From Acidobacteriota bacterium (GTDB lineage: Bacteria; Acidobacteriota; Holophagae; Holophagales; Holophagaceae): a DNA stretch of 64,000 bases. Below the pieces are notes generated by a model. That model saw only the letters and a program-made list of their open reading frames with translations, was not told the DNA's origin and searched no databases. The position numbers and the translations under genes are program-made. Shown here one piece after another: positions 27,934 through 59,764 of the stretch (position 1 is its first letter; every line of letters starts with the position of its first letter). The DNA lies in contig JAJZQW010000001.1 of the NCBI GenBank assembly GCA_021802985.1, forward strand, positions 1 to 64,000, read 5' to 3'.

Positions 27934-28191
27934 ATGACCGATCTGAAACAGCGCGTCAAAGAGATGATCATTGACCGTCTCAAGCTGGAGGGGATGACCC
28001 CGGACCAGATCGAGGACCAGGCGCCCCTCTTCGGGGAGGGCCTGGGCCTGGATTCCATCGATGCCCTGGAGCTGGTGCTGGGCATTGAGCAGGTCTTCGG
28101 CGTGAAGATCGAGGACGAGGCCTCCGGCACCCAGGCCTTCCGCTCCGTCGAAGCCCTCACGGCCTTCATCGCCGAGCACCGCAAGGCCTGA
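27934..28191 (+). CDS. Acyl carrier protein
   Basis: GLGLDSIDALELVLGIEQVFGVKIED (phosphopantetheine Ser). Confidence 0.94.
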   Translation: MTDLKQRVKEMIIDRLKLEGMTPDQIEDQAPLFGEGLGLDSIDALELVLGIEQVFGVKIEDEASGTQAFRSVEALTAFIAEHRKA

Positions 28192-28197
28192 TCCGCC

Positions 28198-28605
28198 ATG
28201 ACGGACATCGCCGGCCACCTGCCCCACCGCTATCCCTTCCTGCTGGTGGACCGGATCCTCGAGCGGGAACCCGGCGTCCGCGTGGTGGCAGAGAAGCTGG
28301 TGACCGCGGGGGAACCCCATCTGCAGGGCCATTTCCCGGACCGCCCCCTGGTGCCCGGCGTCCTGCTGCTGGAGATGCTGGCCCAGGCCGCGGGTTTCCT
28401 GGAGGCGGACTCCCTGCATGGCCGGGCGGTCTTCCTGGCCGCCATCCAGGACGCCAGATTCAAGGCTCCGGCCCTGCCCGGCGACCGGCTGCGCCTGGAG
28501 GTGGCGCTGGAGGGGACCTTCGGCGGGCTGATGAAGGTCCGGGGCACCGCCACCTGCGAAGGGCGGGAGGTCTGCACCGCCAGCCTGATGGTCAAACGGT
28601 CGTGA
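28198..28605 (+). CDS. FabZ/ApeP-like 3-hydroxyacyl-ACP dehydratase
   Basis: LPHRYPFLLVDRILE; LQGHFPDRPLVPGVLLLEMLAQAAG hot-dog signature. Confidence 0.93.
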   Translation: MTDIAGHLPHRYPFLLVDRILEREPGVRVVAEKLVTAGEPHLQGHFPDRPLVPGVLLLEMLAQAAGFLEADSLHGRAVFLAAIQDARFKAPALPGDRLRLEVALEGTFGGLMKVRGTATCEGREVCTASLMVKRS

Positions 28606-29813
28606 CGGAAGCCGCCGCTCCCCGGATCCGCGTGGTCATCACGGGCCTCGGCATGGTGTCCTCCCTGGCCCCGGACCGCGAGGGCACCTGGTCGGCCATG
28701 CTCGCAGGCCGGGACGGCCTGGGCCCCCTCACCCGCCTGGACCTTCCGCTCGAACCCGCCCGCATCGCCGGTGAGGTGCCCATCGCCCACGGGCGCCATC
28801 AGACCCACTGCGAGGCCATGGCCCTGCGGGCGCTGGGGGAGGCGCTCGACCAGGCCCTCGGCGGCCTGGATCCCGGCTGCGACCCCCGCCGCGTCGGCGT
28901 CTTCCAGGGGGCGGGCACCTCGGGCCTGCCGGTGGCCGAGGCCTACCTGGCCGACCTGCTCCAGGGCCGCCACCGCCCCGCCGCAGCGGTGGTCCAGCAG
29001 AGTGCCTGCACCGTCACCGATGCCCTGGCCCATCGTCTGGGCGCCCTGGGCCCCCGGGGCACGGTGATGAACGCCTGCTCCTCCAGCCTGCTGGCCCTGG
29101 GCCAGGCCTGGGAGCGCATCGCTGCGGGCGAGCTGGATCTGGCCGTGGCCGGCGGTGCCGAGGGGCTCTCCATCACCACCTTCGCCGGCTTCTCCTGCCT
29201 GCGGGCCGTGGACCCGGCCAAGTGCCGCCCCTTCAGCCGCGACCGGGCGGGCCTCAACCTGGGCGAGGGCGCCGCGCAGTTCCTGCTGGAGCCCCTCGAC
29301 CGGGCCCGGGCCCGGGGCGCCGCCATCCTCGGGGAGGTGCTGGGCTACGGCGCCAGCATGGACGCCCACCACCCCACGGCGCCCCACCCCGAGGGCGAGG
29401 GGGCCGCCCGGGCCCTGGTCATGGCCCTGCGCACGGGCCGCCTGGCCGCGGAAGAAGTGGATCTGGTCAGCGCCCACGGCACCGCCACCCCCGCCAACGA
29501 CGGGGCCGAATGCCGGGCCATCCGGCGGGCCCTGGGCCCCGCGGCGGACCAGGTCTCCGTCACCAGTTCCAAGAGTCAGTTCGGCCACACCCTGGGCGCC
29601 TCCGGGGCCTTCGCCACCGCCACGGCCCTGTTGGCCCTGCGGGATCAGGTGGTGAGCCCCACCCTCCGCCTGGAGGATCCCGACCCCGCCTGCGACCTGG
29701 ACTGCACACCACTGGTCCCCAGGGAGCGGCTGCTCCGGGCCGCCCTCGTCAACGCCTTCGCCTTCGGCGGCAACAACGTCAGCCTCGCGCTTCGTCGATG
29801 GGAGGGACGATGA
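28602..29813 (+). CDS. Beta-ketoacyl-ACP synthase (FabF-like, catalytic)
   Basis: MNACSSSLLALGQA, SAHGTATPANDGAE, SSKSQFGHTLGASGA (Cys-His-His triad). Confidence 0.94.
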   Translation: MTEAAAPRIRVVITGLGMVSSLAPDREGTWSAMLAGRDGLGPLTRLDLPLEPARIAGEVPIAHGRHQTHCEAMALRALGEALDQALGGLDPGCDPRRVGVFQGAGTSGLPVAEAYLADLLQGRHRPAAAVVQQSACTVTDALAHRLGALGPRGTVMNACSSSLLALGQAWERIAAGELDLAVAGGAEGLSITTFAGFSCLRAVDPAKCRPFSRDRAGLNLGEGAAQFLLEPLDRARARGAAILGEVLGYGASMDAHHPTAPHPEGEGAARALVMALRTGRLAAEEVDLVSAHGTATPANDGAECRAIRRALGPAADQVSVTSSKSQFGHTLGASGAFATATALLALRDQVVSPTLRLEDPDPACDLDCTPLVPRERLLRAALVNAFAFGGNNVSLALRRWEGR

Positions 29814-30898
29814 CGCATCCCACCGACCTCGTCCTCACGGGCCTGGGCCTGGTGCTGCCCTGCGGGGACGGGATCGAGGCCGCCCGGGCGAGCCTGCGCG
29901 CGGGATTGCCCTGCTTTGCGGAGCTGGCGGAAACCCTGGGACGCGGCCGCGGCGCGGCCTGCACGGGCTTCAACCCCGCCGGGATCATCCCCCCCATGCA
30001 GTTGCGGCGGCTGGACCGGCCCTCCCGGTTCGCCTGGGCGGCCGCCCATCAGGCCTTCCAGGACGCGGGCCTGGACCCCAAGGCGCACCCGGAGTTGGGG
30101 GAAACCATCGCCGTGGTCGTGGGGACGATCACGGGCGGCAGCGAAGCCAGCGAGGCCTTCCTGCGCCCCTACCTCCAGCGCGGCCCCGAGGGGGCCTCGC
30201 CCATGGTCTTCCCCAACAGCGTGGCCAACGCGGCCAGCGGGCATCTGGCCGTGGCCTTCGGCCTCAAGGGCCCCAGCGCCACCTTCCTGGAGCGGGAGTG
30301 CGCCACCTTTGCCGCCCTGGAGCAGGGCGCCCGCTGGCTCCGGACCGGCCTGGCCGAGACCGCCCTGGTGCTCGGCACGGACGGCCTCTTCCCCCTCCTG
30401 CTGGAGGCCTGCCGCGATGCCCGGCTCCTGGCCCGGCACGGGGATCCCCGGATCGGATCCGGCGCCGGCTTCCTGCCCGGCGAGGGTGCCCAGGCCTTCC
30501 TGCTGGAGACCCGAGCCCACGCCGAAGGCCGGGGCGCCCGCATCCGGGCCACCCTGGCCGCGGTGGCCGCCGCGCCCGCCCGGGAGAACAGCCCCGCCGC
30601 CCGCACCGCCGCCCTGGCCGAGGCCACCGAGCGGGTCCTCGACGGCCACGCTCCGGATCGCTGGATCGGCGGCAGCAGCGGATCTCCGCGCCTGGATCCC
30701 TCCGAAATGGGGCTGCACGCGGCCCACCCCGCCTGGCCCCCACCGATTCACCCCAAGGCGCTCTGGGGCGAGTTCGCCGGAGCCGGAGGCCCGCTCCTGG
30801 CGGCGGCCCTGCTGGAACCCGGTGAACGGGTGCTGATCACCTGCCCCGGCAGCGGCGGGCCCCAGTACGCCGCCACGCTCGAAGGCGTTAGGCTGTGA
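29810..30898 (+). CDS. Degenerate beta-ketoacyl synthase (chain-length-factor-like)
   Basis: KS fold (VFPNSVANAASGHLAVAFGLKGPSATF) but no recognisable HGT or KxxxGH motif; ATGA overlap with upstream KS. Confidence 0.82.
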   Translation: MTHPTDLVLTGLGLVLPCGDGIEAARASLRAGLPCFAELAETLGRGRGAACTGFNPAGIIPPMQLRRLDRPSRFAWAAAHQAFQDAGLDPKAHPELGETIAVVVGTITGGSEASEAFLRPYLQRGPEGASPMVFPNSVANAASGHLAVAFGLKGPSATFLERECATFAALEQGARWLRTGLAETALVLGTDGLFPLLLEACRDARLLARHGDPRIGSGAGFLPGEGAQAFLLETRAHAEGRGARIRATLAAVAAAPARENSPAARTAALAEATERVLDGHAPDRWIGGSSGSPRLDPSEMGLHAAHPAWPPPIHPKALWGEFAGAGGPLLAAALLEPGERVLITCPGSGGPQYAATLEGVRL

Positions 30899-31431
30899 AC
30901 GCCATGAATTCGCGCGACCAGATCAGCATCGGCAGCCAGTCCATCCTCTGGGTGGCCGGCGTGGGCGTGGGCCTGCTCACCCTCGCCTTCGTGATGGGCG
31001 TCCAGGTGGGCAAGCAGAGCGCGGCCCTGCGCCGGCCCGCGGTCCGCAGCGGCGAGGAGGATCTCCGCGACCTGCCCGAACCCCTGGTGGACCAGCTGAA
31101 GATCTTCGAGGGTGACGGCCCCGACAAGCTGGTGCCCACCCCGCGCGTGGACGCCACCGCACCCACGCCGGAGCCGAAGCCCGCAGCCACCCCGGCCGCG
31201 GCCGGGGGTGACCGCTGGACCCTCCAGCTGGTGGCCACCCCCGACGCGGCCGAGGCCCGCAGGGTGGCCGACCGCGCCAAGGCCGCCGGCTTCGTCACCA
31301 CCACCGTCAAGGACAAGGGCCAGGTGAAGGTGCGCCTCGCCAAGTCCGCCAACCGCGCCACCATGGACAAGACCGCAGAGAAGCTGAAGAAGGGCGGCTT
31401 CAAGCCCTTCGCGGTGAAGGCGGGCGATTAG
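30895..31431 (+). CDS. SPOR-domain membrane protein
   Basis: Single N-terminal TM; WTLQLVATPDAAEARRVADRAKAAGFVTTTVKDKGQVKVRLAKSANRATMDKTAEKLKKGGFKPF. Confidence 0.85.
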   Translation: MNAMNSRDQISIGSQSILWVAGVGVGLLTLAFVMGVQVGKQSAALRRPAVRSGEEDLRDLPEPLVDQLKIFEGDGPDKLVPTPRVDATAPTPEPKPAATPAAAGGDRWTLQLVATPDAAEARRVADRAKAAGFVTTTVKDKGQVKVRLAKSANRATMDKTAEKLKKGGFKPFAVKAGD

Positions 31432-34482: not shown

Positions 34483-34590
34483 GGCTGGTCGCGGAAGACA
34501 CGGAAAACAGCCGGAAGGCGCGGAACAGGACAGCCTCTTCCGTGCCCTCCGCGTGATTCTGCGCCTTCCGCGACCAGCAAAGCCTTGACA
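34483..34590. repeat. Copy 2 of the CTGGTCGCGGAAG inverted-repeat element
   Basis: CTGGTCGCGGAAG (34485-34497) / CTTCCGCGACCAG (34565-34577). Confidence 0.8.
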
Positions 34591-59627: not shown

Positions 59628-59764
59628 CTGGTCACGGAAGGCGCGGAAGTTCACGGAAGACGCTGAAGAGGCGAGGGCGCCCATTGCGCGGGCCCATCCA
59701 AGACAGGCACATCTCCTTCCCTTTTCCGTGTTTTCCGGCCGTTTTCCGTGTCTTCCGCGACCAG
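59628..59764. repeat. Copy 3 of the CTGGTCGCGGAAG inverted-repeat element
   Basis: CTGGTCACGGAAG (59628-59640) ... CTTCCGCGACCAG (59752-59764). Confidence 0.8.

Follow-up and report, generated by a model that had tools for sequence, protein, structure and literature searches.

A conserved minimal KS–CLF-like gene module in the Holophagaceae

Introduction

Ketosynthase–chain-length factor (KS–CLF) pairs are usually part of large pigment or antibiotic clusters with a patchy distribution. Gln at the position of the former catalytic Cys is a feature of actinorhodin-type CLFs that is not universal among CLFs; ApeC-type CLFs lack the Cys, yet have no fixed Gln. In aryl polyene (APE) synthesis, deletion of apeE abolished the pigment, and ApeE was proposed to be the preferred starter carrier (PMC8253772). 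ApeO–ApeC made a fully elongated polyene in vitro without ApeR, and ApeC of A. baumannii has one thiolase fold (PMC8358021). The coronafacic acid (CFA) cassette consists of an acyl carrier protein (ACP), a dehydratase, a ketosynthase (KS) and a KS-like protein (PMC10698177). A 2023 catalogue of type II PKS clusters included CLFs from Acidobacteria, with neither Geothrix nor Holophagae in its main text (PMC10132072), and the open literature that we searched held no description of the minimal KS–CLF-like module reported here.

This module was found in a 64-kb stretch of DNA (the window) from a 72%-complete MAG of a Geothrix-like member of the Holophagaceae. It is a real, conserved and ancient unit, a compact four-gene set in Geothrix and related bacteria.

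Gene content and organization

The genes for an ACP, a FabZ-like dehydratase and two KS proteins, KS1 and KS2, were located on the forward strand, divergent from nuoA–D (Table 1). A sequence-only reading of this DNA had described five tightly packed genes, including a downstream SPOR gene, with 4-nt overlaps at the last three junctions. The five open reading frames and the overlaps at FabZ-like/KS1 and KS1/KS2 (GTGA, ATGA) were recovered. The KS2/SPOR overlap is doubtful, since it needs a GTG start at position 30895, whereas the SPOR start conserved in the family alignment is ATG 30904 (M1 invariant, followed by RD), with which 5 nt separate the two genes.

Table 1. Features of the locus and positions of the repeat core in the window
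Feature	Position	Strand	Details
Acyl carrier protein, ApeE type, 85 aa	27934..28191	+	Phosphopantetheine Ser41 in GLGLDSIDALEL at 28054-28056
FabZ-like 3-hydroxyacyl-ACP dehydratase, 135 aa	28198..28605	+	PF07977, NF000582; His45 and Glu59
KS1, active ketosynthase, KS-alpha-like	28602..29813	+	GTG start; PF00109 and PF02801; Cys159 (29076-29078), His292, Lys324, His329
KS2, catalytically dead KS-like protein, KS-beta/CLF-like, 362 aa	29810..30898	+	PF00109, N-half only; Glu163 (30296-30298), Gly288, Lys316, Glu321
SPOR-domain membrane protein, neighbour outside the module	30904..31431	+	PF05036
Matches to the repeat core GGTCACGGAAGACACGGAA	12876-12894, 34487-34505, 59630-59667, 59744-59762		

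The ACP matched PF00550 (39.6 bits) and exceeded the cut-off of 70 for NF006617/PRK09184 with 75.6 bits, a family in which E. coli ApeE scores 89.5. It was 48% identical to ApeE, and its identity across 37 loci was 79–96%. The FabZ-like protein passed the NF000582 FabZ cut-off (142.6 bits, cut-off 113) but not that of TIGR01750 (138.6 bits, cut-off 155.15). The 14-residue spacing of its His45 and Glu59 matches that of the pair His54/Glu68 in E. coli FabZ. Only in G. fermentans and one MAG (L006:5425-5799 and L016:5467-5841) was the loop with the catalytic His deleted, with the Glu kept, which suggests that the dehydration step is shared or dispensable.

Comparison with described systems

With the APE core, the locus shared an ACP of the ApeE family and an active KS with a dead KS partner, and ApeO fell in the KS1 clade. 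It differed from APE systems in that KS1 (268 bits) scored under the ApeO cut-off of 407 and KS2, whose model spans both thiolase halves, is longer than E. coli ApeC (362 vs 240 aa). With E. coli APE proteins as tblastn queries, the 64-kb window contained no ketoreductase (KR), ligase, acyltransferase or exporter, which bears out the earlier statement that the first three are not encoded nearby. ApeH, ApeQ, ApeR, ApeD and MMPL were absent by the same search; the matches to ApeR were KS1 and KS2 themselves. Thus, of the kinship with type II PKS and APE systems that had been proposed, the relationship of the ACP to ApeE stood, and the assignment to an APE system failed on the ApeO family, the size of ApeC and the lack of ApeH, ApeQ and ApeR.

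The highly reducing type II PKS for ishigamide (Iga11–Iga12, PDB 6kxd) likewise combines a KS–CLF pair with an ACP and a dehydratase. Chain 6kxd_A was matched by KS1 and KS2 in sequence and by KS2 in fold, but FabF chains and 9s5h_B outscored 6kxd by sequence, and the cassette lacks a KR. The KS–cyclisation factor systems for cispentacin and CFA (AmcF–AmcG; Cfa3–Cfa4) also share an ACP, a FabZ-like protein, a KS and a dead KS partner; the cassette failed every equivalog cut-off and has no AmcH ligase. Since ligase, acyltransferase, ketoreductase and exporter were absent from the window, the cassette is not a complete APE, cispentacin-type or fatty acid synthase (FAS) system.

ACP–KS–CLF clusters of other Acidobacteriota (L053-L056, L066) showed the same ACP–KS1–KS2 adjacency, and their CLF sites were as in KS2 (Glu at Cys, Gly at the first His, Lys kept, Glu at the second His), although their KS proteins were only ~31–43% identical to those of the cassette. 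Several acidobacterial clusters carry a KR, GT2, MMPL, lipid-A-type acyltransferase, methyltransferase or AMP-ligase, whereas the cassette has none of these.

Separately, APE clusters, some of them near complete, were observed in several Holophagaceae (L074, L075, L076, L080, L077, L078, L072/L073, L081), and some of these organisms, including some Geothrix, also carry the cassette. Replacement of the cassette by APE clusters was rejected, because some Geothrix hold both and because in one genome (G235), which lacks the cassette, FabF is the only KS. In cassette-less Holophagaceae, ACP–KS–CLF triples were located at L072:9027-10860, inside an APE region, and at L079:4143-6585.

Active sites and phylogeny of KS1 and KS2

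KS1 has an intact Cys-His-Lys-His site, invariant in 25 aligned sequences, and the Cys-His-His motifs quoted in the sequence-only reading were correct. KS1 scored below the cut-offs of the FabF model (319.4 bits, cut-off 493.75), the ApeO family PRK09185 (268.4 bits, cut-off 407; E. coli ApeO 556) and AmcF (198 of 325 bits). The HMM classification proposed for both proteins found KS domains in each, in KS2 the N-terminal half (PF00109) only, and left KS1 under the ApeO, FabF and AmcF cut-offs. The housekeeping FabF is encoded elsewhere (G000:C84), adjoining AcpP.

In the family alignment of KS2, the catalytic Cys was replaced by Glu163 and the first and second His by Gly288 and Glu321, respectively, and Lys316 was kept; all four residues were invariant in 33 aligned sequences. 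The lack of HGT and GH motifs (KALWGEFAGAGG) had been read correctly, and Glu163 at the nucleophile position and the retained Lys316 are additions to that reading. An apparent Cys164 was rejected as a kept nucleophile: it arose from a gapped alignment, and position 164 is variable (Cys/Asn/Ser/Gly/Val) next to the fixed Glu163. The former Cys position held Glu in 33/33 sequences and Gln in none. The Pfam match of KS2 covered the N-terminal KS domain, with no C-terminal KS domain. Its AF2 model had a KS fold (pLDDT 78.9, pTM 0.84), with weak parts at residues 37–68, and Foldseek matched the model to KS-II structures over both thiolase halves. Identity across loci was lower for KS2 than for KS1, and KS2 was under purifying selection (dN/dS 0.15–0.38).

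In a maximum-likelihood tree, KS2 was placed in a 19-row clade (support 99/97) of dead-site CLF-type partners, apart from FabF; the clade included CLF-type proteins encoded by other Acidobacteriota and in APE-like regions of Holophagaceae. The only characterised CLF in the tree, the half-size E. coli ApeC, fell outside this clade on a long branch. KS1 was placed in a 25-row clade with ApeO and the active KS partners of those CLFs. A KSα/KSβ pair accounts best for this placement of KS2 among CLF-type proteins and of KS1 among the active KSs that partner them; the arrangement proposed earlier is thus supported by the tree and by the fixed replacements in KS2. These replacements were conserved in the Holophagaceae orthologues and partly common to acidobacterial KS–CLF partners: Glu or Asp at the Cys and Glu at the second His recurred in acidobacterial CLF-type proteins adjoining an active KS, at loci of which most have an ACP and some a KR, MMPL, acyltransferase or AMP-ligase. 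At one locus (L060:7620-8342), the CLF frame stopped early and the C-terminus was unlike a KS, possibly due to a frameshift or an assembly error.

Distribution, inheritance and selection

A KS2 scan of genome contigs yielded 39 syntenic Holophagaceae loci. KS1 adjoined KS2 in all 39, mostly with a 4-nt overlap, and the ACP and FabZ genes followed the same order at every locus with enough contig. Two findings that would have spoken against the sequence-only reading, an intact KS2 triad and an unconserved cluster, were thus absent, and the synteny across relatives that it named as a check was found. KS2 relatives came from Geothrix, Holophagaceae and Acidobacteria. Counting ACP matches at E below 1e-46, the cassette-type ACP was present in 55 of 77 family genomes and in 44 of the 47 from the genus of the window. 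Among 199 phylum genomes, full-strength KS2 matches (>500 bits) all lay within the family, the next best scoring 157 bits. Outside the Acidobacteriota, plasmids were searched for relatives; no match covered 80% of KS2, and all were <60% identical.

KS1 distances were correlated with KS2 distances (r 0.934), and both with those of the host Nuo proteins (r 0.865 and 0.896, respectively; permutation maxima 0.43 and 0.60), and dN/dS was 0.0–0.38 across all five genes. The four genes are one vertically inherited cassette, for which four or more losses are probable. Repeated independent gain was rejected by parsimony on the Nuo tree (8 gains vs 4 losses), in which some nodes are weak and one loss depends on a node with support 0.52.

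Proposed function and alternative explanations

In three complete Geothrix genomes (G027, G053, G087), FabF was the only other strong KS and the AcpP beside it the only other ACP; the remaining weak KS matches resembled thiolases. A housekeeping FabZ, separate from the cassette copy, was encoded in 11/11 genomes checked, and short-chain reductases were plentiful elsewhere in the genome. From the few other KS and ACP genes and the many short-chain reductases, we infer that both ketoreduction and malonyl loading must depend on borrowed enzymes.

The explanation that we favour, and hold to be somewhat probable, is a stripped, vertically inherited KS–CLF elongation module that borrows FabD and FabG from fatty acid synthesis and makes a probably unsaturated acyl chain. 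Its observed basis is the gene content, the conservation, the intact site of KS1 and the dead site of KS2, the CLF-like phylogeny and the independence from the SPOR gene. KS1 and KS2 would probably pair as a heterodimer, in which KS2 would act as CLFs do, shaping the pocket for the chain and the docking of the ACP. A starter carried on the ApeE-type ACP would be extended with malonyl units by KS1–KS2; FabD (malonyl loading) and FabG (ketoreduction) would probably be supplied by fatty acid synthesis, and dehydration would fall to the cassette FabZ-like protein or, where this is impaired, to the housekeeping FabZ. The resulting acyl chain would probably be unsaturated and possibly a polyene; an enzyme encoded elsewhere may move it from the ACP to a cell-envelope acceptor, giving it a probable envelope role. 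An unsaturated product is preferred because ApeE is needed in APE synthesis (PMC8253772) and ApeO–ApeC gives a polyene without ApeR (PMC8358021). Several observations count against this explanation: the cassette is not accompanied by genes for a ligase, transferase, thioesterase or exporter, the dead-site residues of KS2 differ from the canonical CLF Gln, two species, G. fermentans among them, have lost the catalytic His of the dehydratase by deletion, and the enoyl-ACP reductase that any FAS should contain could turn the enoyl chain into a saturated product. Open papers on Geothrix fatty acids or colony colour gave no hint of the product.

Auxiliary fatty acid synthesis is possible, though we think it unlikely. 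KS1 and the FabZ-like protein would then be an anaerobic FabA/FabB-like (FabN/FabO-like) pair for unsaturated or chain-length-altered membrane fatty acids, with KS2 as an inactive regulatory subunit. The higher score of KS1 with FabF than with ApeO (319 vs 268 bits) agrees with this, as do the passing of a FabZ family cut-off and the lack of a further KS beside FabF, with only one other FabZ, in the three complete Geothrix genomes. Membrane fatty acids, however, need neither a dedicated ApeE-type ACP nor a strictly co-inherited dead KS, the cassette was apparently lost in four lineages, and the G. fermentans dehydratase has no catalytic His. Synthesis of a cyclopentenone carboxylic acid by a cispentacin- or CFA-like system (AmcB/E/F/G; Cfa1-4) is very unlikely: the same four parts make up the CFA cassette and sub-threshold matches to the AmcB, AmcE and AmcF models were obtained, but all four equivalog cut-offs were failed (AmcB 43.7/80, AmcE 63.8/140, AmcF 198/325, AmcG 13.5/80 bits), AmcH is missing from the operon, and KS2 has 362 aa compared to the 157 positions of the AmcG model. 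That KS2 is a decaying, functionless pseudoenzyme in an ordinary set of FabF paralogues would fit its lost catalytic residues, its missing Pfam C-terminal KS domain and its lower identity across loci. This has already been largely refuted by conservation, and we give it hardly any credence, given invariant replacement residues in 33 sequences, dN/dS of 0.15–0.38, the position beside KS1 in 39/39 loci and the retained KS fold (AF2 model, Foldseek).

Less conventionally, the invariant Glu163, Lys316 and Glu321 of KS2 could serve a new role rather than that of a passive CLF, in making a Holophagaceae-specific lipid unseen in other bacteria. We consider this a distinctly long shot; such roles may be, for example, decarboxylative priming of malonyl-ACP or acid–base control of the growing chain. 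In any case, the fixed Glu/Gly/Glu pattern provides a specific hypothesis on CLF function that can be addressed by mutation. As a stripped four-gene KS–CLF set that is vertical across the family, including Geothrix, with apparently few losses, the cassette suggests a conserved, so far undescribed lipid or pigment, and, being small, it lends itself to testing how a CLF and a dedicated ACP operate with borrowed fatty acid enzymes.

The SPOR gene and the nuoA site

The SPOR gene, which encodes a peptidoglycan-binding domain, had been regarded as an unexpected partner, which was not supported. In cassette-less Holophagaceae (genera g2 and g120 and part of g122), SPOR was directly beside nuoA, with roughly 90 bp between them. 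SPOR is therefore an older resident of the locus, and these genomes rule it out as a pathway partner. In two cassette-bearing loci (L039/L063), other DNA was present between nuoA and the ACP gene and also between KS2 and SPOR. From the arrangements across genera, the locus can be described as nuoA-[site]-SPOR, with the cassette occupying the site. In genus g5, which has small genomes, a gene that reads as TonB-dependent-receptor-like fills this site (L093:4700-7087, L094:4344-6467).

Nine loci (L007, L008, L009, L015, L017, L018, L023, L025, L044) had repeat-like inserts of ~130–430 bp at the KS1 stop/KS2 start. An extra small gene at this position was rejected, as the inserts were repeat-like DNA with no conserved open reading frame. 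In L025, and probably also in L007, the 3′ end of KS1 occurred a second time after the insert. The core of this junction repeat, GGTCACGGAAGACACGGAA, had five matches in the window (≤3 mismatches), compared to 0.01 expected.
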